Below are positions 23,438 to 35,962 of a DNA stretch of 64,000 bases, piece by piece. How positions within the stretch are numbered: the first letter of the stretch is position 1; each line of letters starts with the position of its first letter. The notes under the pieces were generated by a model. The model was not told where the DNA came from. It did not search any database and was given only the letters and a program-made list of their open reading frames with translations. The position numbers and the translations under genes are program-made. The DNA comes from Scytolyngbya sp. HA4215-MV1 (GTDB taxonomy: Bacteria; Cyanobacteriota; Cyanobacteriia; Leptolyngbyales; Leptolyngbyaceae), in assembly GCA_019359045.1 (NCBI GenBank), contig JAHHIA010000008.1:62001-126000 (forward strand). Reading direction: 5' to 3'.

Positions 23438-25966
<2,529 letters not shown>

Positions 25967-25991: not shown

Positions 25992-27179
25992 TCAATTCAG
26001 TGACTTTTCATAGATGCGATAGGTTTTGTAAATCGTGCCACCAGATGCTTCGATCAGCTTGCGAGACGGCAGATTGTCTTCATAAACCCAGGAAAGCTCA
26101 GCCCGCTGATAGGGTTTTCCTTTTCGAATGCCGCCCATCATGCCCAGATAAATCAGCCCCAACGGTACCATCTTGCGGCGATATTCCGGCAAGGAGCAAA
26201 TGGCAATGACTCGCCCCTGATTAATTTGGCGGCGATACCAGAGAAATTTGAGAATGCCCAACCAGTCAAGTTTGCCATTGACGCGCTTCAGCGGAATGTT
26301 GTAATCGGGTAACCCCATCCAAAAACCAATCATTTCACCATTGTATTCGGCGATCGGAAACACATCGGGATCAACCAGATCTTGCAAAGACTTTGCTTCT
26401 TCTAAAAATTCTTCCAGGGTGCGTGGAGTCGAACTCCAGTTATTGGAAAAAGCCTTAGTAAACAGGTGATAGAGGCTAGTAGCATCTTGGAGGAAGTCCT
26501 CTCCCTTGGTATGTAAGGGACGAAAGGTAACTCCTGATTTCAGAGCGATGTGATAGCCTTTCTCAAATTCGGGAGGCAGGGGTTGATCGAGTCGAAAGTT
26601 ATAAGCATAAGCATCTTTGGCTTTGTGCCAGCCAGCCCGATCCATAAATTCTGGATAGTAGGGTGGGTTATAGGGCATCATCACCATGGGAGGTGTGTCG
26701 AAGCCCTCGACCAGAAACAGGCAATTATTATGGGTAGAAAGATCGATCGGTCCTCGAACCTGGGTCATGCCCTGGCTACGTAACCAGTCACAAGCAGCAT
26801 TGAGCAGGGCTTGGGCAACTTCAAAATTGGGAACACATTCAAAGAAGCCAAACAAGCCAATTTTTTTCCCTTCGCGTTCAATGAGGCGATCGTTGACCGC
26901 TGCTACAACTCGTCCCAGGGGGATTTTAGATTTTGGATTTTGGATTTTGGCTTGAGGTTGATTTGCAGTTTCTTGCTCGATAGCGATAAATTGCTGCAGC
27001 CGACCGTACTGAAAGAAAGGATTGCTAGGAGCAAACTGTTTGGCGATGCTACTTCTCAAGGGAGCAACCCAATTCGGATCGTCAGCATAAACTCGATCGG
27101 GAACCCGAAGAAATAATTCCTGATCGTCCGAACTGGTCACTACGCGAATTTCCGTTTGCAGATTTTGCGTCAATCCCAT
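25992..27179 (-). CDS. GNAT-fold acyltransferase-like protein (YghO-like)
   Basis: 395 residues. The N-terminal segment reads VYADDPNWVAPLRSS and NPFFQYGRLQQFIAIE, with FGFFEC further on, which is typical of the YghO-like GNAT family. From general knowledge, bacterial ceramide synthase (bCerS) of Caulobacter is a GNAT protein that N-acylates a sphingoid base; I cannot prove membership here. An internal loop at residues about 78-86 is an in-frame insertion built from a 7-bp repeat (KIQNPKSKI). It lies beside an alpha-oxoamine synthase on the same strand (79-base gap), which fits a lipid acyltransferase role. It converges with ligA. Confidence 0.7.
   Translation of the reverse strand: MGLTQNLQTEIRVVTSSDDQELFLRVPDRVYADDPNWVAPLRSSIAKQFAPSNPFFQYGRLQQFIAIEQETANQPQAKIQNPKSKIPLGRVVAAVNDRLIEREGKKIGLFGFFECVPNFEVAQALLNAACDWLRSQGMTQVRGPIDLSTHNNCLFLVEGFDTPPMVMMPYNPPYYPEFMDRAGWHKAKDAYAYNFRLDQPLPPEFEKGYHIALKSGVTFRPLHTKGEDFLQDATSLYHLFTKAFSNNWSSTPRTLEEFLEEAKSLQDLVDPDVFPIAEYNGEMIGFWMGLPDYNIPLKRVNGKLDWLGILKFLWYRRQINQGRVIAICSLPEYRRKMVPLGLIYLGMMGGIRKGKPYQRAELSWVYEDNLPSRKLIEASGGTIYKTYRIYEKSLN
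26922..26950. repeat. Heptanucleotide tandem repeat inside the GNAT gene
   Basis: About four copies of a 7-bp unit (TTTTGGA type) run in tandem within the coding sequence. On the coding strand they give KIQNPKSKI. The same family of unit occurs at 4892-4927 (inside another gene) and 42165-42195 (non-coding). Confidence 0.75.
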
Positions 27180-27258
27180 AAAAGCAACCCTTCAAAATAT
27201 CGAAGGGATGAAAGACGACGCCTCATCCCTCATCCCTATTTACAGGTCTTTGAAACGA

Positions 27259-28539
27259 TTATGCGCTAATGGTCGGTGTATACATCAGATCGCGAACTTT
27301 GACCATCGCATTGACCAACCGATCCATCTCTTCTTGCGTGTGGAGTGCATTGGCCGTGATACGAATTCGGGGTTTGGCGATGAACCAGATAGGGGAAACC
27401 CAGATGCCAAAGTGATCCATCAATTCTCTGGCGTAAAGTTTGGGATTTACTTCGGAGGGGAGAATTACGGGCACCACGTTGGTTTCACCGATCGGATCAA
27501 ACCCTTCTGCGGAAAGGCGCGATCGCAAGTAGCGAGTGTTGTCTTGCAGTTGGGTTACCAGAGCCGGATTTTGACGCACAATGCGGATACTCTCTAGCGC
27601 CGCTGCGGTCGTAGGCGCAGGGAGCGAAATGGTTCCAATGGAGGTAGGAGACACATTCAACAAGGGTTTGAGTTCTGCCACATGGCTGCTAATGGCAGCT
27701 CCAGCAGATGCCGCGAACTTAGAGAAGGTGGTCATAATCAGCGGCACCACTCCCCGCTCAATCGCATCTTGGGGCAACATATCGAAGTATTCATAGATAC
27801 CTCGACCCGTTGCACCGAGCGCACCACTGGCATGGGCCTCATCCATCAACAACACACTACCTTCGTAGTTCTGCATGACATCAAGCATGTCTGGCAATGG
27901 GGCAATATCGCCATCCATTGAGAAAACAGCATCTGAGACCACCAGAATGCGATCGTTCGGACGCACATAACGCTGAAGTTTGCGCGCCAGATCTTCCATA
28001 TCGCAATGGCGATAGGCGCGCACCCGCACTCGTGGGCTATGTCCAAACAGCTTGCCAGAACGAGTACCCGCATTCGCGATCGCCGAGACAATGCAACCAT
28101 GATTCAGAACATCAGTCAAAATCAGCGTTTCCCGCGTGTGCTGGAAGTTGGGCACCGGGATAGCGAGATGACAAAATGCATCCATCAGCGCCTGCATTGC
28201 CATCCACGCATTCAAAAACAACTGAGTATGCGGCAGATGTTTAAAGGCAGAAATTTCTTCTTCCAACTGTCGATGCAAATCAATGCGCCCACTCAAAACT
28301 GAGCAAGAGCTATTCGAGGTGCCGTATTGCTCAATGGCATTAATTGCTGCCTGCTTCACCTCTTCTCGACCAGTCAAACCCAGCACATCATTTGTACAGA
28401 AAGTCAAAACCACTCGGCGCTTGCCGGTTGACGCTTCCTCAATGTCAACCAAATTTCCCTGCCTACCATGACAGATGTACTCATCCGGGTCAAGCCCGCT
28501 TTCGTACCAGCGCTGGACGTACTCCTTGACAACTTGCAC
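27259..28539 (-). CDS. Alpha-oxoamine synthase family enzyme (SPT/AONS/CqsA-like)
   Basis: PLP enzyme of the alpha-oxoamine synthase family, which condenses an amino acid with an acyl-CoA or acyl-ACP and releases CO2. Family members are serine palmitoyltransferase, AONS (BioF), KBL, ALAS and CqsA. 426 residues. NDVLGL starts the core, NHGCIVSAI carries His147 that stacks on PLP, DEAHASGALGATGRG gives Asp233 and His236, and TTFSKFAASAGA holds the Schiff-base Lys274. No bio or hem gene is nearby, so biotin or haem synthesis is unlikely. With the GNAT, Rieske, GH3 and hydroxylase genes around it, I infer a lipid or ketone backbone synthase. Substrates unknown. Confidence 0.85.
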   Translation of the reverse strand: MQVVKEYVQRWYESGLDPDEYICHGRQGNLVDIEEASTGKRRVVLTFCTNDVLGLTGREEVKQAAINAIEQYGTSNSSCSVLSGRIDLHRQLEEEISAFKHLPHTQLFLNAWMAMQALMDAFCHLAIPVPNFQHTRETLILTDVLNHGCIVSAIANAGTRSGKLFGHSPRVRVRAYRHCDMEDLARKLQRYVRPNDRILVVSDAVFSMDGDIAPLPDMLDVMQNYEGSVLLMDEAHASGALGATGRGIYEYFDMLPQDAIERGVVPLIMTTFSKFAASAGAAISSHVAELKPLLNVSPTSIGTISLPAPTTAAALESIRIVRQNPALVTQLQDNTRYLRSRLSAEGFDPIGETNVVPVILPSEVNPKLYARELMDHFGIWVSPIWFIAKPRIRITANALHTQEEMDRLVNAMVKVRDLMYTPTISA

Positions 28540-28782: not shown

Positions 28783-29931
28783 CTACTGAAACTCTCCAGT
28801 TAAGTCAGTTTGACTCGAAGCCATCGCCTTGTGAGAGGAGACAGGTTCTTTCGTACTGGCGTTCCCATTACCAGAAGTTTGCTCAGATTTTTGTTGAAAT
28901 AGCTCATATTGCCGGATAATCAACCGCTGTAGAGCAATAATGGCCGGGTTAATCTCTACGTAACGGCGAGTGGGGCGCTCCAGATACCGCTTTTGCTCAC
29001 TTTCCATCATTTCAATATCTTGATCCAGAAACTTGAGCAAAACGAATCGGCGCAAAACGTTTCTGAGAAGAGGTTTGAGCGGATTCAGTAACCATTGAGG
29101 TAACCGGACTCTAAAGAAAAAGAGCGCGAAAGAACGACTCTCAGAGGGACCCACTGGTAACCGCATCAGATACAGAGAAGAGACTCCCTGAAGTGTGCTG
29201 TGATAATGGGGATAGTGATATTGCACAGAGATTGGCAAAGTGGTGACCGTATCTGCTTGTTCAGCTAGTCCCAAAAATTTTGCCAATCGCCCTTTATAGG
29301 AAACTTGATACTCAGCACAAATCGAGGCTTCGGTTTCACACAAACTGAGCAAAACTGGGTTAAACCAGCCCTGCAATTTTTGATGCAAAAAACCATGAAA
29401 AACATCCATTGCATTTTCATTGCAAATGGAAAAATGGGCACCAAGTCGAGCCGTGACAGAAACATCCAGCCAGCCTGGCTGCTCAAATTCTACGACATGA
29501 GGAGGTTGGCGAATTTCTGCCAGAGCTGGATCACCTGGAAAAATCCAGATTAAACCATATTTTTCCTGGATTGGGTAGCTGCGTGCCTGTGCACAAGGCA
29601 GCTTTTGCCCAGCTGGTAAGTAAGGGATATTAACACAGTCCCCTTTGCCATCAAACTGCCAGCCATGATAACGACAAGCAATCGTTTGTCCTTGCACCTC
29701 ACCTTTATGAAGGGCGACCCCTCGATGTGGACAGGCATCCTCTAAAGCGTGGAGTTGCCCTTCATCATCGCGGTACACTGCAATCGCCTGCTGCCAAACC
29801 GAGACGGGTATCACTTCGCCGGACTTTAACCGATATCCCCACTCTACCGGATACCAGTAGTCAGCATTGATGCCTACTTCCCGAACAACATTGCGAACTG
29901 CCTGACTTTTCAAGGTCGTAGCCAGTTCCAT
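28783..29931 (-). CDS. Rieske non-haem iron oxygenase alpha-type subunit
   Basis: About 382 residues. The Rieske [2Fe-2S] motif is CPHRG followed 17 residues later by CRYHGW, with Cys67/His69 and Cys86/His89. The C-terminal catalytic domain has NENAMDVFHGFLHQK, the Asp-His-x4-His mononuclear iron site. Overall it resembles PaO/CAO-like oxygenases in plants and cyanobacteria. Function here is unknown: hydroxylation, demethylation or desaturation are all possible. I chose the ATG at 29931 because GAGGAG lies seven bases upstream; the frame is open to 29958. The C-terminal 25 residues are Ser/Thr/Gln-rich. It heads the minus-strand group ending with the GNAT gene. Confidence 0.85.
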   Translation of the reverse strand: MELATTLKSQAVRNVVREVGINADYWYPVEWGYRLKSGEVIPVSVWQQAIAVYRDDEGQLHALEDACPHRGVALHKGEVQGQTIACRYHGWQFDGKGDCVNIPYLPAGQKLPCAQARSYPIQEKYGLIWIFPGDPALAEIRQPPHVVEFEQPGWLDVSVTARLGAHFSICNENAMDVFHGFLHQKLQGWFNPVLLSLCETEASICAEYQVSYKGRLAKFLGLAEQADTVTTLPISVQYHYPHYHSTLQGVSSLYLMRLPVGPSESRSFALFFFRVRLPQWLLNPLKPLLRNVLRRFVLLKFLDQDIEMMESEQKRYLERPTRRYVEINPAIIALQRLIIRQYELFQQKSEQTSGNGNASTKEPVSSHKAMASSQTDLTGEFQ

Positions 29932-30425
29932 TCCAATCTCCTCACTCACCTGAATCATTCAAACACTGACAACCGTAGGAACACGGTATGCTAGTACACT
30001 CTGCCAGCATTTATACATTCACTCCACTTATCACTGAGAGAGGTGGGATTATCCTACCCACTATCGGAAAATATTTATACCCACTCATTCCCTAAAACTT
30101 GTCTCTAATTTGAAAAACTTTACTTGCAGTGCATGATAGCACTTAAACTTCCCTTACAAAAGTCTCACATCGGGTGGTCATGGCACTTGTATGCAGTCAC
30201 CAAAGTGCCTGAAAAGTCTTTTCTAAAGGCTATTTCGATTGCATTAAGGCAAGCTGCGATCTCCCTTCCAAGCAGCGGTCACGATACTCATCCCTAATCG
30301 GCTTGGGACTAGATTAAATCATTCTGCCCTACCCACCTTATGACTGCTTGAGGTCGATCGGATCAGACAAGTCGTAATATGTCAGACTGGCTTCAATATC
30401 TAGGAAACCATTTCCCCATTCCAAC
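29932..30425. other. Divergent promoter region between the Rieske and MFS genes
   Basis: Non-coding, AT-rich in places. A GTGGG...CCCAC imperfect inverted repeat lies at 30042-30060, with a further ACCCACT copy at about 30080. It could be an operator for a regulator of the divergent genes, but that is a guess. Confidence 0.35.
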
Positions 30426-31610
30426 GTGACTGCGATCGCATCTCCCCCAAAATCTCTGAAATTAATCACTTTGCTGGCGGCAGGGTCTTTGACCACAATG
30501 GTGGGCGGCGTTGTTGCCCCGATTTTGCCAGACATGGTTCAACAACTTCATCTAAACCCTGCAATGGCAGGAAATTTGGTCAGTTTTCACTGTTTGACGA
30601 TCGCACTTTTCAGCCCTCCCTTGGGTATTTTGGCAGACCGCATTGGTCGATTACGAGTTTTAGTGCCGTCACTCCTGTTGTATGCCGTGTTTGGTGTAGC
30701 AGAAGCCTTTGTCTCAGATATTGTGCCTCTTTTACTGCTACGGGGATTGTTAGGCGCTGCCAGCGGTGGCATTGCCGCAGCTAGCTTAGGTTTACTGACA
30801 AGTTTGTATGAGGGAGAAACCCGCACTCAAGCCCTGGGATATGCCACCAGTAGCTTGACGATCGCAGGAATTCTTTTCCCGCTACTAGGAGGAATTGTAG
30901 GCGCGACCCATTGGCAATGGACATTTGGGTTATACGCGGTTAGCATCCCAATGGCATTTTTAGCCAGTGTGGTTTTACGAGAAAAGCGATCGACCTCGCA
31001 ACCCCGCAAAAACAAAGCTAATGATAAATTGCGGCAGGTTTTGCAACAACCCCAAGTCCTTTTTATGTTGCTATTGGTGGCGCTGTGCTCCGTTATCACC
31101 TACGCAGTCATTATCTACACACCGCTCTACCTCAAAACGGCGATCGGAGCTGGACCTGTTTTGAATGGGATTTTTCTAGCCTCGCGAGCGGTGGGTGCTG
31201 CAACGGTTTCAGCCCTGGGTACGAAATGGCTAATTCGCCGCTTAGGTAGCCAGAAGATGGTCGCAGTAGGCTTTCTCCTAATGGCACTGACGTTATTAAC
31301 GATTCCCGTTTTAAATCAAATTGGCTGGATTTTATCGGCAGCGATCGTTTTTGGCGTTGGGCTAGGCATCACCTTGCCCAGTCTCTACGGCTGTTTAGCA
31401 GATCTGGCACCCGAACATCTGCGTTCTAGCCTGCTCGCGTCTGGCACTGGTGCAGGTTTTTTAGGACAGTTCCTCTGTCCCATTTTGCTGGCTCCAGTTG
31501 TCCACCCTCACAACTTAACGGGGGTTTTCTATACCACAGCTGGCATTGCTGTCATCGTGGCGATCGTGATGTTGGTGAAAGAAAAATGGGGTAGAAATCC
31601 CGAAGGATGA
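30426..31610 (+). CDS. MFS transporter
   Basis: 394 residues with twelve predicted membrane segments. The loop 2-3 signature GILADRIGRLRVL is present (the major facilitator Gx3-DRxGRR pattern), with a matching inner loop in the second half (AVGAATVSALGTKWLIRRLG). It resembles drug/metabolite efflux MFS proteins. The start is a GTG at 30426 with MTAIASPP; no good ribosome site is seen. It lies divergent from the Rieske gene and converges with the GH3 pair, so a role in exporting the locus product is plausible but unproven. Confidence 0.88.
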   Translation: MTAIASPPKSLKLITLLAAGSLTTMVGGVVAPILPDMVQQLHLNPAMAGNLVSFHCLTIALFSPPLGILADRIGRLRVLVPSLLLYAVFGVAEAFVSDIVPLLLLRGLLGAASGGIAAASLGLLTSLYEGETRTQALGYATSSLTIAGILFPLLGGIVGATHWQWTFGLYAVSIPMAFLASVVLREKRSTSQPRKNKANDKLRQVLQQPQVLFMLLLVALCSVITYAVIIYTPLYLKTAIGAGPVLNGIFLASRAVGAATVSALGTKWLIRRLGSQKMVAVGFLLMALTLLTIPVLNQIGWILSAAIVFGVGLGITLPSLYGCLADLAPEHLRSSLLASGTGAGFLGQFLCPILLAPVVHPHNLTGVFYTTAGIAVIVAIVMLVKEKWGRNPEG

Positions 31611-31647: not shown

Positions 31648-33330
31648 CTAAGCCTCTACCGGCAACCTAATTTCTTGCGCAACAGTGAGACCCGATAAAA
31701 AATTTCGGTCCTCGCTGATATGAGGAAATTTGAGCTGAGAATCGGGAACGCCTTTTTCAAGCTGGCGCTGGCGCAAGATCGCAAAACTGCCTGGGGCTAA
31801 AATTCGCAAGTAGGGCGCAGGAATCGCATCACGGCGACTAATTTGATAGTGGGTATTAGCTTCTTGCAGTCTCCGGTCAAAACTGGCTAGAAATGCCTGA
31901 GGATCGGGGAGAACCGCATGGGGTGAGAGTTCAACACACGCGAGATAACGCGCTGGAAAATCGCAATCTGAAAGGGTAACGCAAAAGTCCTCTAGATGTA
32001 GATTAAATTCCTGTTGCAGCGATCGCATCACCTCCGTCACGTGAGATTCCGTCGTCTTTTCTGTAGTTGAAGAAATCAATCCCCCCTGCCGATGCCGGAA
32101 CACAATTAAGGGAGCCTGCTGGTAAAAACCCGTTACCTCAATCACATCGCCAATGTCGTAACGGTAAAAACCGTTGTAACTTGTGGTCAGAATCCGATAA
32201 CGTTCCCCTGACTTCACTTCGGTCGCAAGCACCGTTTTGGGTTGGTCAATCTCCCACTGGTCTTGGGGAATGAACTCAAAGAAGCCGCTGTCGATCGCCA
32301 AAACACTATCATCCGAATTGACATCGGGATAGAGACTAAACATTCCTTCAGCCGAGGAGAAAACTGCCCCAAAAACGGGCGTATCGCCAAAATAGCTGGG
32401 AAATCGCTCGAAATAAAAATCAGAAGTCCCGCCACGCGCATTGGCAACAAAGGCGAGATTGGTCCATACCAATTTCGGAGTTAAGCGTCCCTCTGACTGC
32501 AAAATTTCCCGCAACTGTTTTGCCCGTGCGGGTACAGCCGACCAGCGTTTCTCTAACTGCAATCGCAAACTAGATTCCAATTCCAACCAATCCGCGATCG
32601 TCCCCTTTTCCAAATCATGAATCAGATCTTCGGCGTATTTCTCCAAGTAGTTGCAGGTTCGTAGATTCAGCATTGGAAAGTTAGCAACCATTCCCCGCAT
32701 CAACGGTTCCCGCAAGGCAAATAGCAAACACAGATAATGACGAGCCACACTGCTATTCGCCTGAATTGCCGCAAAGGGATGGGCAAAAAACTGCTCATAC
32801 AGCGTCCGGTTCATCCGTAACAACCCAGCACTAGCAGGACCATAGGGGATATTGCCACTGGTGTGCCCCCAGAGGGCGGGTGAGTTGGTGACCAACATTT
32901 TGCCAAACTGCAGCCCACGATCGCCCAGTGCCTCATTCAAAAAGCCCATACTCGTCAGACTTGCCTGGCGAAAAATGGCTTGCGATCGCTGCGTTGTAGG
33001 AATCAGTTTCTTTTTGCCCGTGGAGCCACTGGTCAAGGTCAAATAAACCACAGGGTCAGCCGTTAGAACATTCAATGCTCCCTGGGCAATGCGTTCGAGA
33101 TAGGGTTCATAACTGCTGTAGGGCAAAATAGGTACGCGCGATCGAAACTGGTCGATGGAGCGAATTTCACCCAGTTTAAATTTTTGTCCCAGCTCAGTAT
33201 TTTTTTGAACTTGAATCAGCTGACGCAAAAAACGTTCTTGAACTGCTTCAGTCTGACGCAGCTTGCGAACAAAACCTGCTTTGACGCCGCTTGCAAACGT
33301 CGTCAGCGTAGATAGCACAAAATTTGGCAT
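31648..33330 (-). CDS. GH3-family acyl-acid amido synthetase, copy 1
   Basis: GH3 enzymes activate an acyl acid with ATP and form an amide with an amino acid or amine; in plants they conjugate jasmonate and auxin. 560 residues, the normal length. The ATP-binding P-loop is TSGSTGKKKLIP, then YSSAEG, and YRYDIGDVIEV, the three ANL-type motifs of the family. It is a close paralogue of the next gene upstream, with long identical blocks such as YLEKYAEDLI versus YLEKYGEELI and FEFIPQDQW in both. The bacterial substrates of GH3 proteins are unknown. The fused context of an alpha-oxoamine synthase, oxygenases and an MFS exporter points to lipid amide formation. Confidence 0.88.
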   Translation of the reverse strand: MPNFVLSTLTTFASGVKAGFVRKLRQTEAVQERFLRQLIQVQKNTELGQKFKLGEIRSIDQFRSRVPILPYSSYEPYLERIAQGALNVLTADPVVYLTLTSGSTGKKKLIPTTQRSQAIFRQASLTSMGFLNEALGDRGLQFGKMLVTNSPALWGHTSGNIPYGPASAGLLRMNRTLYEQFFAHPFAAIQANSSVARHYLCLLFALREPLMRGMVANFPMLNLRTCNYLEKYAEDLIHDLEKGTIADWLELESSLRLQLEKRWSAVPARAKQLREILQSEGRLTPKLVWTNLAFVANARGGTSDFYFERFPSYFGDTPVFGAVFSSAEGMFSLYPDVNSDDSVLAIDSGFFEFIPQDQWEIDQPKTVLATEVKSGERYRILTTSYNGFYRYDIGDVIEVTGFYQQAPLIVFRHRQGGLISSTTEKTTESHVTEVMRSLQQEFNLHLEDFCVTLSDCDFPARYLACVELSPHAVLPDPQAFLASFDRRLQEANTHYQISRRDAIPAPYLRILAPGSFAILRQRQLEKGVPDSQLKFPHISEDRNFLSGLTVAQEIRLPVEA

Positions 33331-33483: not shown

Positions 33484-35169
33484 TTAATGACGATCGTCCG
33501 GTAGGCGAATTTCTTGCTCGACTCGCAAACCTGTCAGAAATTGTCGATCTTCGCTCAGGTGGGGAAATTTGAGTTGGGAATCCGGAATCCCTCTCTGCAA
33601 TTGTCGTTGCTGCAAAATGGCAAAACTGCCGGGAGCCAGTAACCGCAAGCGAGGAGCAGGAACCTGATCGCGCCGTTTCACCTCATAAGAGGTGTGAATT
33701 TCCTTCAGACGATCGTCAAATCGGCTCAGAAAGGCTTGCGGCTCTGCTAGAGATTGGTCAGGGGGTAGCTCAATATTGACCAGATAATGTGCCGGAATCA
33801 CATCCTCAGATAAGGTAATGCAAAAATCAGTGAGAGACAGATTAAATTCTTTCTGCAATGCTTCGATCACTCGCGTGACATGAAATTCAGTGGTTTTTTC
33901 AGTAGTGGAAGACAACACGCCTCCCGTGCGGTAGCGGAACACTAGAATGGGTGCCCGGTTATAGAAGCCTAGAACCTCTACTACATCGCCAATGTCGTAA
34001 CGGTAAAAGCCACTGTAATTGGTCATGAGAATCCGATAGCGTTCTCCAACTTTGACCTCGGTTGCCAGAACGGTACTGGGGTGGTTAGTGTCCCACTGGT
34101 CTTGGGGGATGAACTCAAAAAAACCGCTCTCGATCGCCAACACGCTGCCATCAGTGTTGACATCGGGATAAATTCCAAACGTCCCTTCGGCTGAGGAATA
34201 TGCACCCCCAAACACGGGCGTATCGCCGAAGTAATCAGGAAACCGTTGGAAGTAAAAATCAGAGGTTCCCCCTCGCGCCGTTCCTAGATAAGACAGATGG
34301 GTCCAAACCGCTTGTGGGGTCAATCGCCCTTCCGTTCGCAAAATCTGCCGCAGTTGAGCCGCTCGCAAAGGATCGGGTGACCACTGTCGCTCTAGTTTGA
34401 CTCGCAACTCCGGCTCTAATTTTAGCCAGTTTGCCAATTCTCCGGTTTCAATGTCCTCAATCAACTCCTCGCCATACTTTTCCAGATAGCCACACATTCT
34501 GAGCAACAGCATGGGAAAGTTGGCTGCCATGCCTCGTAAAGCTGGATTGCGCAGCGCAAAGAGCAAACATAGGTAGTGACGGGACAAACTATGGGCAGGA
34601 AGTAGCGCTTCAAACGGGTAAGCGAGCAATTGCTCAGCCAAAAATTTGCCCATGCGGATGACTCCCACACTGGCAGGTCCGTATTCAATGCCACCGCTGG
34701 TTCGCCCTAACAGATCCACAGAATTAGTGAGTAGCATTTTGCCGAAGCGAGACTTTCTGGTGCGCAGGGCATCACTTAAAAAACCAATGCTAGTCAGATT
34801 GGCTTTTCGCAAAGAATTCTGAAAGCGTTTGGTCACAGGAATCAATTTTTTGGTTCCTGTTGATCCACTGGTGAGGTTCAGGTAAACGACTGGGTCAGCC
34901 GTTAAAATGTTTTTTTCGCCTTGCGCAATCCGTTCGGCATAAGGTTCATAGCTGCTGTAAGGTAATATCGGTACGCGAGATCGAAACTGGTCGATACTTT
35001 TGATTTCTCGCAGCTTGTATTGTTGTCCTAACTCGGTATCCTGATAAGCAACCAATAACTGCTGCAAATATTGCTCTTGAGTTGCTAGCGCTTGATCCGT
35101 TTTACGGACGAAATTATCTTTGGTACGCCGCGCGAGCGCTACCAATATAGGCAGCACAAAATTTGACAT
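33484..35169 (-). CDS. GH3-family acyl-acid amido synthetase, copy 2
   Basis: A second GH3 enzyme of 561 residues. It begins MSNFVLPILVALARR, has TSGSTGTKKLIP, YSSAEGTFGIYPD and YRYDIGDVVEV, and ends in a segment like its sister's (HLSEDRQFLTGLRVEQEIRLP). The pair share well over half their residues by eye, a tandem duplication with 153 bases between. Two active paralogues suggest two acyl or amine partners. Substrate not readable from sequence. Confidence 0.88.
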   Translation of the reverse strand: MSNFVLPILVALARRTKDNFVRKTDQALATQEQYLQQLLVAYQDTELGQQYKLREIKSIDQFRSRVPILPYSSYEPYAERIAQGEKNILTADPVVYLNLTSGSTGTKKLIPVTKRFQNSLRKANLTSIGFLSDALRTRKSRFGKMLLTNSVDLLGRTSGGIEYGPASVGVIRMGKFLAEQLLAYPFEALLPAHSLSRHYLCLLFALRNPALRGMAANFPMLLLRMCGYLEKYGEELIEDIETGELANWLKLEPELRVKLERQWSPDPLRAAQLRQILRTEGRLTPQAVWTHLSYLGTARGGTSDFYFQRFPDYFGDTPVFGGAYSSAEGTFGIYPDVNTDGSVLAIESGFFEFIPQDQWDTNHPSTVLATEVKVGERYRILMTNYSGFYRYDIGDVVEVLGFYNRAPILVFRYRTGGVLSSTTEKTTEFHVTRVIEALQKEFNLSLTDFCITLSEDVIPAHYLVNIELPPDQSLAEPQAFLSRFDDRLKEIHTSYEVKRRDQVPAPRLRLLAPGSFAILQQRQLQRGIPDSQLKFPHLSEDRQFLTGLRVEQEIRLPDDRH

Positions 35170-35458: not shown

Positions 35459-35962
35459 ATGCCTTTATTGACCAAGTTTTTGATTGGACTTGTTTGTTGT
35501 GCGATCGGCTTCATTCTGGCAAGCCTGGTTGAATATTGGGTTCACCGCCTGATGCATGTCTCGCTTCGGTTTGGCAAACGTCATCGCGACCATCACCGCC
35601 GCAACGAAGGTCAAGGCGTTTTATGGGAGTTTCGTGACTACGTGAAAGGCACATTTATTATCATGGTGCCGATGTTTTTTTATTCCTTAGAAGCAGGCAT
35701 CGGGTGGACATTGGGTGGGCTGGCTTACGCTGCTTTTTCTTCCTATGCGCATCAACTCCAGCACGAAAACCCAACCAAGTGCTTCTGGATGAAAATGCCT
35801 GTTCACTATGTCCACCACAAATACAACATGTGGCACCATAACTTTGGCTTAGGGTTGGATTGGTGGGATCACATCTTTGGCACCTATCAACCGGTGGAAT
35901 GGTTAACAGAAGAAGAAACGAGTCAGCCTGTTCGAGGATATTGGCAATTGCGATGGTGGTAG
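35459..35962 (+). CDS. Fatty acid hydroxylase superfamily protein
   Basis: 167 residues, a short integral membrane di-iron enzyme. The eight-histidine signature is present: HRLMH, HRDHHR, HQLQH and HYVHHKYNMWHH. At least three to four membrane segments are expected. This superfamily includes beta-carotene hydroxylases, Sur2/Scs7 sphingoid hydroxylases and sterol desaturases. The length is shorter than most (about 200-300), so the exact substrate (carotenoid or lipid) is open. AAGGA lies close before the ATG at 35459. It diverges from the GH3 pair and leads a plus-strand group with the DUF962 gene. Confidence 0.8.
   Translation: MPLLTKFLIGLVCCAIGFILASLVEYWVHRLMHVSLRFGKRHRDHHRRNEGQGVLWEFRDYVKGTFIIMVPMFFYSLEAGIGWTLGGLAYAAFSSYAHQLQHENPTKCFWMKMPVHYVHHKYNMWHHNFGLGLDWWDHIFGTYQPVEWLTEEETSQPVRGYWQLRWW

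Follow-up and report, generated by a model that had tools for sequence, protein, structure and literature searches.

A synthase and a bCerS/YghO-family acyltransferase inherited together in cyanobacteria: a candidate module for ceramide-type lipids

What might a cyanobacterium make with a pyridoxal phosphate (PLP)-dependent alpha-oxoamine synthase (AOS) encoded immediately upstream of a GNAT-fold acyltransferase? The question is raised by a stretch of 64,000 nucleotides of Scytolyngbya sp. HA4215-MV1 (contig JAHHIA010000008.1, positions 62,001 to 126,000; hereafter the window), in which the open reading frames (ORFs) of the two genes lie on the minus strand, 79 bases apart (Table 1). An earlier note on this DNA had pointed to the two same-strand genes at this spacing, which the ORFs bear out, and had read in them the logic of bacterial ceramide synthesis, where one enzyme makes a long-chain base and the other acylates it. 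That two-enzyme logic gains strong support from the co-inheritance of the genes and from a reductase-type partner, and the GNAT is of the YghO family, but the synthase does not fall in the serine palmitoyltransferase (SPT) clade. We propose, with a probability of about 0.72, that the AOS and the GNAT would constitute two thirds of a ceramide-type lipid pathway, whose substrates and ceramide-like product we infer from gene identities, catalytic residues, fold, the co-inheritance of the AOS, the GNAT and a short-chain dehydrogenase/reductase (SDR), and the conserved gene order AOS-GNAT-SDR.

Co-inheritance of three genes and the family of the acyltransferase

We surveyed 291 genomes of the phylum, with orthologue floors of 71% identity for the AOS, 56% for the GNAT and 60% for the SDR, the last queried with the extended SDR that adjoins the GNAT in relatives (L050:11128-12096). 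Each of the three genes is present in 21 genomes, and the set of 21, which spans 13 families, is identical for all three, counts that ignore kinship. The orthologues are separated from the next matches by wide gaps (E-values of 1e-207 then 1e-48 for the AOS, and 1e-142 then 1e-46 for the GNAT), and no SDR match lies between 3e-125 and the limit of 1e-70. AOS and GNAT are within 400 bp of each other on one strand in 13 of these genomes and apart in the other 8, while GNAT and SDR are within 1 kb in 9; since many sets are apart or unlinked, joint presence is no by-product of linkage. Because the orthologues of both share the same 21 genomes, the pairing of AOS and GNAT is far beyond chance.

A wider scan for the GNAT gave 146 loci, of which the best 80 (68 cyanobacterial and 12 other) were considered. 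The locus contains an AOS in 33 of the 68, plus an AOS fragment in L110, and 32 of the remaining 34 cyanobacterial genomes encode an AOS elsewhere (4/4 and 28/30 in two checks), which brings to 66 of 68 the cyanobacterial loci with an AOS either at the locus itself or at another site of the genome. Gene order was counted in the 67 cyanobacterial loci whose GNAT ORF is complete, L110 being excluded for its broken one: an SDR lies downstream on the same strand within 1 kb in 42, an AOS lies upstream within 1 kb in 23, and both are so placed in 13. Outside the cyanobacteria, 11 of the 12 loci have an AOS immediately upstream of the GNAT. Two gammaproteobacterial metagenome-assembled genomes (MAGs; L103:1052-3463 and L104:1132-4909) have an AOS of the cyanobacterial type (55% identity) directly upstream of the GNAT (49-50%), with an SDR alongside, a possible case of transfer, or of mis-binning.

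In the genome of the window the SDR is encoded on a different contig (G000:C14:176637-177581, equal to L183:6623-7582; 319 residues), and shows the Rossmann motif TGASGFTG and the YxxxK motif as YDVTK140. Our SDR tree held too few outgroups to address CerR orthology (one 'other SDR' only), and we consider this protein CerR-like by its predicted role, a term that does not imply orthology to CerR.

The window GNAT aligns end to end with Escherichia coli YghO (30% identity, E 4e-55; the MG1655 copy gives the same), and in a passage of PMC9386255 the E. coli BL21 gene yghO is listed as corresponding to CC_1154, which encodes the ceramide N-acyltransferase of Caulobacter. This full-length homology upholds the earlier assignment to a YghO-like group, made from the strings YADDPNW and NPFF, both of which are present in the protein. 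Pfam recognises it as Acetyltransf_1 (23.6 bits, cut-off 20.7), and 29 of its 395 residues are invariant across 40 aligned relatives; no NCBIfam model matched, a sequence search of the PDB returned no relative, and the fold search with an AlphaFold model (pLDDT 90.3) returned generic tandem-GNAT structures only. In a midpoint-rooted tree of 36 sequences, the cyanobacterial GNATs and those of the two gammaproteobacterial MAGs form one clade (support 100/99), whose sister clade (97/91) comprises YghO, alphaproteobacterial-type GNATs encoded within 10 kb of an SPT, a distant GNAT from the window's own class (G276), and the GNATs of TA06, Zixibacteria, Planctomycetota, Nitrospirota, Latescibacterota, Elusimicrobia and Cloacimonadota; the cyanobacterial and the SPT-linked clades are joined under a 100/100 fork. 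From its sequence and its position in this tree, the window GNAT is assigned to the bCerS/YghO N-acyltransferase family, with acylation of a long-chain base as its predicted activity.

In E. coli D2, yghO adjoins genes for an SPT, an acyl carrier protein (ACP), an NAD-dependent epimerase and a fatty acyl-AMP ligase (FAAL). The stretch of K-12 MG1655 read around yghO (L163:9044-10216) is without these four genes, and the start of this copy lies inside an IS5 element (about 70 bp).

A divergent synthase and the readings it allows

All the AOS catalytic residues are kept in the window protein (H147, D233, H236, K274 and R393, that is the PLP lysine, the aspartate, two histidines and the carboxylate-binding arginine), Pfam recognises it as Aminotran_1_2, and its structure is predicted to have the AOS-family fold, with no class favoured. 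Its scores fall below the cut-off of every NCBIfam model, whether for SPT (176/640, 167/500 and 110/670 bits, score/cut-off), BioF (232/426), KBL (195/460 and 179/493) or HemA (161/339). In a tree of 56 AOS sequences, the 16 of the window type form a clade of their own, whose stem measures 2.45 changes per site. The SPT clade (100/100), which holds the Sphingobacterium enzyme, the proteobacterial SPTs and the GNAT-adjacent AOS of other phyla, excludes the window type, and KBL, HemA, BioF and cyanobacterial BioF form further clades, none with the window AOS. A second tree, from which 14 rows of the first set were dropped, agrees, and its SPT clade (99/97, now with cyanobacterial fusions) is again without it. 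Approximately unbiased (AU) tests do not reject a sister relation of the window AOS to SPT, KBL, BioF or HemA (p 0.158 to 0.257; SPT p-AU 0.158). The class-diagnostic columns that it matches number 5/30 for KBL, 5/59 for HemA, 1/7 for BioF and 11/64 for cyanobacterial BioF. On these comparisons the AOS cannot be filed as an SPT. The earlier expectation that the synthase would group with SPT thus failed, as it sits in an isolated clade outside SPT, BioF, KBL and HemA; the opposite pattern, a synthase with KBL or BioF beside a GNAT lacking bCerS-like residues, did not appear either. Since the GNAT-adjacent AOS of other phyla (L109, L113, L114, L115, L116, L120 and L121) belong to the SPT clade, the tree placements indicate that one acyltransferase family pairs with SPT-clade synthases elsewhere and with a divergent synthase in cyanobacteria.

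In the pathway that we propose, the AOS would join a long-chain acyl thioester to an amino acid with loss of CO2, yielding a long-chain 2-amino-3-ketone; the bCerS-family GNAT would add a second acyl chain to the amine; the extended-SDR reductase, which is encoded on another contig here but in many relatives by the next gene after the GNAT, would reduce the 3-ketone; and a Rieske oxygenase and a PF04116 hydroxylase would put oxygen or a double bond into the chains. N-acylation followed by 3-keto reduction is most likely the order of the middle steps, which is debated even in Caulobacter according to a passage of PMC11087976. For the amino acid, serine may reasonably be assumed by default, although the sequence does not settle the choice. 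Acyl-ACP is the likely acyl donor, since the genes have neither a dedicated ACP nor an acyl-CoA ligase with them and fatty acids are recycled in cyanobacteria by way of acyl-ACP synthetase (as stated in a passage of PMC9386255). A tblastn search of the 80 loci, the window and L183 with the ACP and FAAL of E. coli D2 gave a single weak FAAL match, in L073.

Several observations weigh against a ceramide-type product. Besides lying outside the SPT clade, the window AOS matches 4 of 16 SPT-diagnostic columns, is changed at positions that are near-invariant in other AOS (Y52V, G75S, R80S, N115M, S149C and P387I), and has Cys79 at the position aligned to the substrate-binding serine of SPT (which we take to be S81), while L053 has threonine there. 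The SDR resembles E. coli CerR at the superfamily level only (24%, 2e-16), its best NCBIfam models being HpnA (198/368 bits) and SdmB (155/600), all below cut-off, and no head-group genes were identified. No phylogenetic correction was applied to the co-occurrence counts; two GNAT-carrying cyanobacterial MAGs (L042 and L078) have no AOS in their genomes, and a Cloacimonetes GNAT (L119) has no adjoining AOS, though its genome has other AOS genes. Homologues of the GNAT are found within 10 kb of an SPT in just 4 of 19 proteobacterial loci. Seven distant YghO-like GNATs from other genomes of the phylum (L024-L030), mostly outside the class of the window and one of them an ORF of 861 residues, have no AOS or SDR within flanks of 1.5 kb, so that a GNAT of this family is not by itself a sign of the module (L031 and L032, with no ORF-scan match, were left out of this check). 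Finally, one of the two cyanobacterial sphingolipid reports discussed below may reflect contamination.

The rebuilt surroundings of the SPT substrate-serine residue, together with the isolation of the clade and the lack of an ACP and acyl ligase partner of the Rhodobacterial kind, speak for a different substrate of the AOS, with glycine, alanine, cysteate or some further amino acid in place of serine, and for a non-sphingoid N-acyl amino lipid as product, akin to sulfonolipids or 1-deoxyceramides. We rate this alternative at somewhat under even odds, given that the carboxylate-binding arginine and all catalytic residues are kept, that an Alistipes cysteate acyltransferase is no closer to the window AOS than SPT is (105.6 bits for 28eh vs 133.7 for 3a2b), and that two genera carrying the genes have sphingolipids as a reported class. 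Equally tentative is the broader idea that the AOS represents a new class with its own amino-acid substrate, the bCerS-type enzyme having been recruited to a non-SPT synthase, and that the product would belong to an undescribed class of lipids, long-chain amino alcohols that are N-acylated and hydroxylated but are not classical sphingolipids.

It is unlikely that the module makes a soluble or secreted secondary metabolite, such as an N-acyl aminoketone or a related signal, instead of a membrane lipid; some other AOS enzymes do produce quorum signals, the distribution is patchy (21/291) and exporters of the MFS or DevC/DevA-like kind occur near some loci, but the clusters combine a conserved N-acyltransferase of the ceramide synthase family with a lipid-type hydroxylase and have no conserved nonribosomal peptide synthetase or polyketide synthase (PKS) partner. 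We regard as very improbable that the Rieske oxygenase and the SDR serve sterol or hopanoid modification, with AOS and GNAT adjacent by chance: although SdmA is the nearest model for the former (238/600 bits) and HpnA and SdmB for the latter, all these scores are far under cut-off, the SDR accompanies AOS and GNAT in 21 of 21 genomes, and the Rieske gene occurs only where both exist. The pairing of a standard BioF or KBL with some generic acetyltransferase is least credible of all and was rejected; bioF is indeed the top NCBIfam model by bits, but its cut-off is missed, the same genome encodes a separate BioF above it (460 vs 426 bits), the AOS lies outside the BioF and KBL clades, and the GNAT is of the YghO family and co-inherited with its partner.

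Candidate tailoring enzymes and other neighbours

Table 1. Features of the window around the synthase-acyltransferase pair
Feature	Position	Strand	Basis and remarks
ORF presumed, by its sequence, to be ligA	23666-25966	+	flanks the GNAT
GNAT-fold N-acyltransferase, bCerS/YghO family, 395 aa	25992..27179	-	ATG start; YghO homology, tree, fold model, co-occurrence
PLP-dependent AOS of a separate class, SPT-like by context, 426 aa	27259..28539	-	GTG start; catalytic residues, isolated clade, AOS fold
Rieske-type oxygenase, 391 aa, probable lipid tailoring	28783..29958	-	upstream of AOS; Pfam Rieske, [2Fe-2S] motif, co-occurrence
MFS transporter, possible exporter, weak association	30426..31610	+	Pfam
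GH3-family acyl-adenylating enzyme, copy b, weak association with the pair	31648..33330	-	Pfam, NCBIfam
GH3-family acyl-adenylating enzyme, copy a, weak association with the pair	33484..35169	-	Pfam, NCBIfam
PF04116 fatty-acid-hydroxylase-family membrane di-iron enzyme, 167 aa, probable long-chain-base or acyl hydroxylase	35459..35962	+	Pfam, invariant His, co-occurrence

Orthologues of the Rieske oxygenase, whose [2Fe-2S] motif is at residue 76, were found in 14 of the 291 genomes (at least 57% identity, the next match being at 38%), and all 14 are within the module set of 21. The PF04116 gene, surveyed in the same genomes at E 1e-35 or better, is present in 25: in 19 of the 21 module genomes at 66% identity or more (it is absent from G033 and G045), and in six others at 49-62%. 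Ten candidate iron-ligand histidines of its product are invariant in 18 aligned sequences.

In all six of these other carriers, an AOS is joined or adjacent to an ACP or lies within a protein of about 1,100 residues, and these regions were examined together with those of G002 and G076, chosen from AOS matches. This second type of cyanobacterial AOS locus (L210:8151-15317, L211:3834-13157, L212:4552-12198, L214:6497-12152, L217:4808-13382, L209:6272-14110, L215:8108-9739 and L216:4355-7810) has FAAL, ACP and AOS either in a single fusion protein of about 1,100 residues or split; a classical SDR, a further acyl-AMP ligase and glycosyltransferases often come after them. Pfam identified AMP-ligase, ACP and AOS in one protein in L210, a separate ACP in L209 and an ACP-AOS fusion in L215, the remaining loci being judged by length and AOS match. 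In the second tree, the SPT clade (99/97) takes in three of the second-type AOS, and the other five are sister to it (82/74); because the AOS of G058, G081 and G209 are in the SPT clade, their clusters look glycosphingolipid-type. The locus of G076 has no PF04116 gene at the threshold used, and therefore the hydroxylase is not universal at second-type loci. The PF04116 gene nonetheless accompanies AOS loci of the long-chain-base type in both their forms, a pattern that speaks for a long-chain base as the product of the window AOS as well.

The other neighbours are less regular. An MFS gene occurs near the GNAT in 14 of the 67 cyanobacterial loci, with an AOS present in all 14, and a GH3 gene occurs in 9 of the 67; the two GH3 genes of the window, in tandem, have a weak similarity to the OlsH model (94 bits for copy b and 102 for copy a, of 620). 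In 12 cyanobacterial loci (L043, L046, L050, L069-L072, L075, L079, L087, L091 and L100), a DevC-like permease and a DevA-like ATPase are encoded downstream of the GNAT, at a distance of about 1-6 kb. The permease scores 164/290 bits (tested in L091) and the ATPase 260/296 (tested in L069), and the pair is a possible exporter of the lipid.

Known systems and cyanobacterial sphingolipids

The ceramide pathway of Caulobacter and E. coli (spt, bcerS, that is CC_1154 or yghO, and cerR) likewise unites an AOS, a bCerS/YghO GNAT and an NAD(P)-dependent SDR, often clustered. The cyanobacterial set differs in its AOS outside the SPT clade and an SDR alike at the superfamily level only, has no dedicated AcpR or acyl-ACP synthetase nearby, and includes the additional Rieske and PF04116 oxygenases. 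In Rhodobacteria, SPT co-occurs with an ACP and an acyl-ACP synthetase according to a passage of PMC9386255, and the search with the E. coli D2 proteins found these two members of the five-gene ceramide set at none of the 80 loci, beyond the weak FAAL match in L073. The SPT-GNAT pairs of Elusimicrobia, Nitrospirota, Zixibacteria, Planctomycetota and TA06 (L109-L121) resemble the window pair in that an AOS immediately precedes a GNAT of the same family, but their AOS lie in the SPT clade (L109, L113-L116, L120 and L121).

Two further AOS are comparable by description. SgaB of a Pseudomonas PKS cluster, described in a passage of PMC12134224 as an AOS with SPT activity, is likewise a PLP-dependent AOS in bacteria not earlier known as sphingolipid producers, but it works with a PKS. 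Npun_R3567 of Nostoc punctiforme is a cyanobacterial AOS once proposed as an SPT; unlike the window AOS it is of the ordinary cyanobacterial BioF-like type and the sole AOS of its genome, and by description it would correspond to the other AOS of the Scytolyngbya genome (L002), which is about 36% identical to the window AOS. OlsH, a GH3-type lyso-ornithine lipid synthetase (described in part of PMC12493201), shares its family with the GH3 neighbours, but they score far below its cut-off and the OlsH system contains no AOS or GNAT.

As stated in a passage of PMC8895605, no sphingolipids were found in N. punctiforme, whose Npun_R3567 makes no 3-ketosphinganine, and Scytonema julianum and Moorea producens are the only cyanobacterial sources of sphingolipids reported. 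A Moorena genome (L095) carries AOS, GNAT and SDR in one locus, and a Scytonema MAG carries GNAT and SDR together with the AOS elsewhere in the genome. Contamination of the Moorea cerebroside is possible, because it was isolated from field-collected material (according to a passage of PMC6272925). No description of the AOS-GNAT-SDR module was found in the open-licence papers searched.

The module would work like a ceramide-forming set, with a GNAT that can be filed with bCerS/YghO, and it appears to add a new branch to the AOS family, as well as a case of a non-SPT synthase partnered by an acyltransferase of the bCerS type. The three-gene set is present in about 7% of the sampled species of the phylum, and in the wider sample also in the genera Moorena and Scytonema. 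Which genes, if any, give rise to cyanobacterial sphingolipids becomes a directly testable question with a named, co-inherited set of three genes and two tailoring enzymes, and cyanobacteria may make sphingolipid-like lipids by a route of their own.

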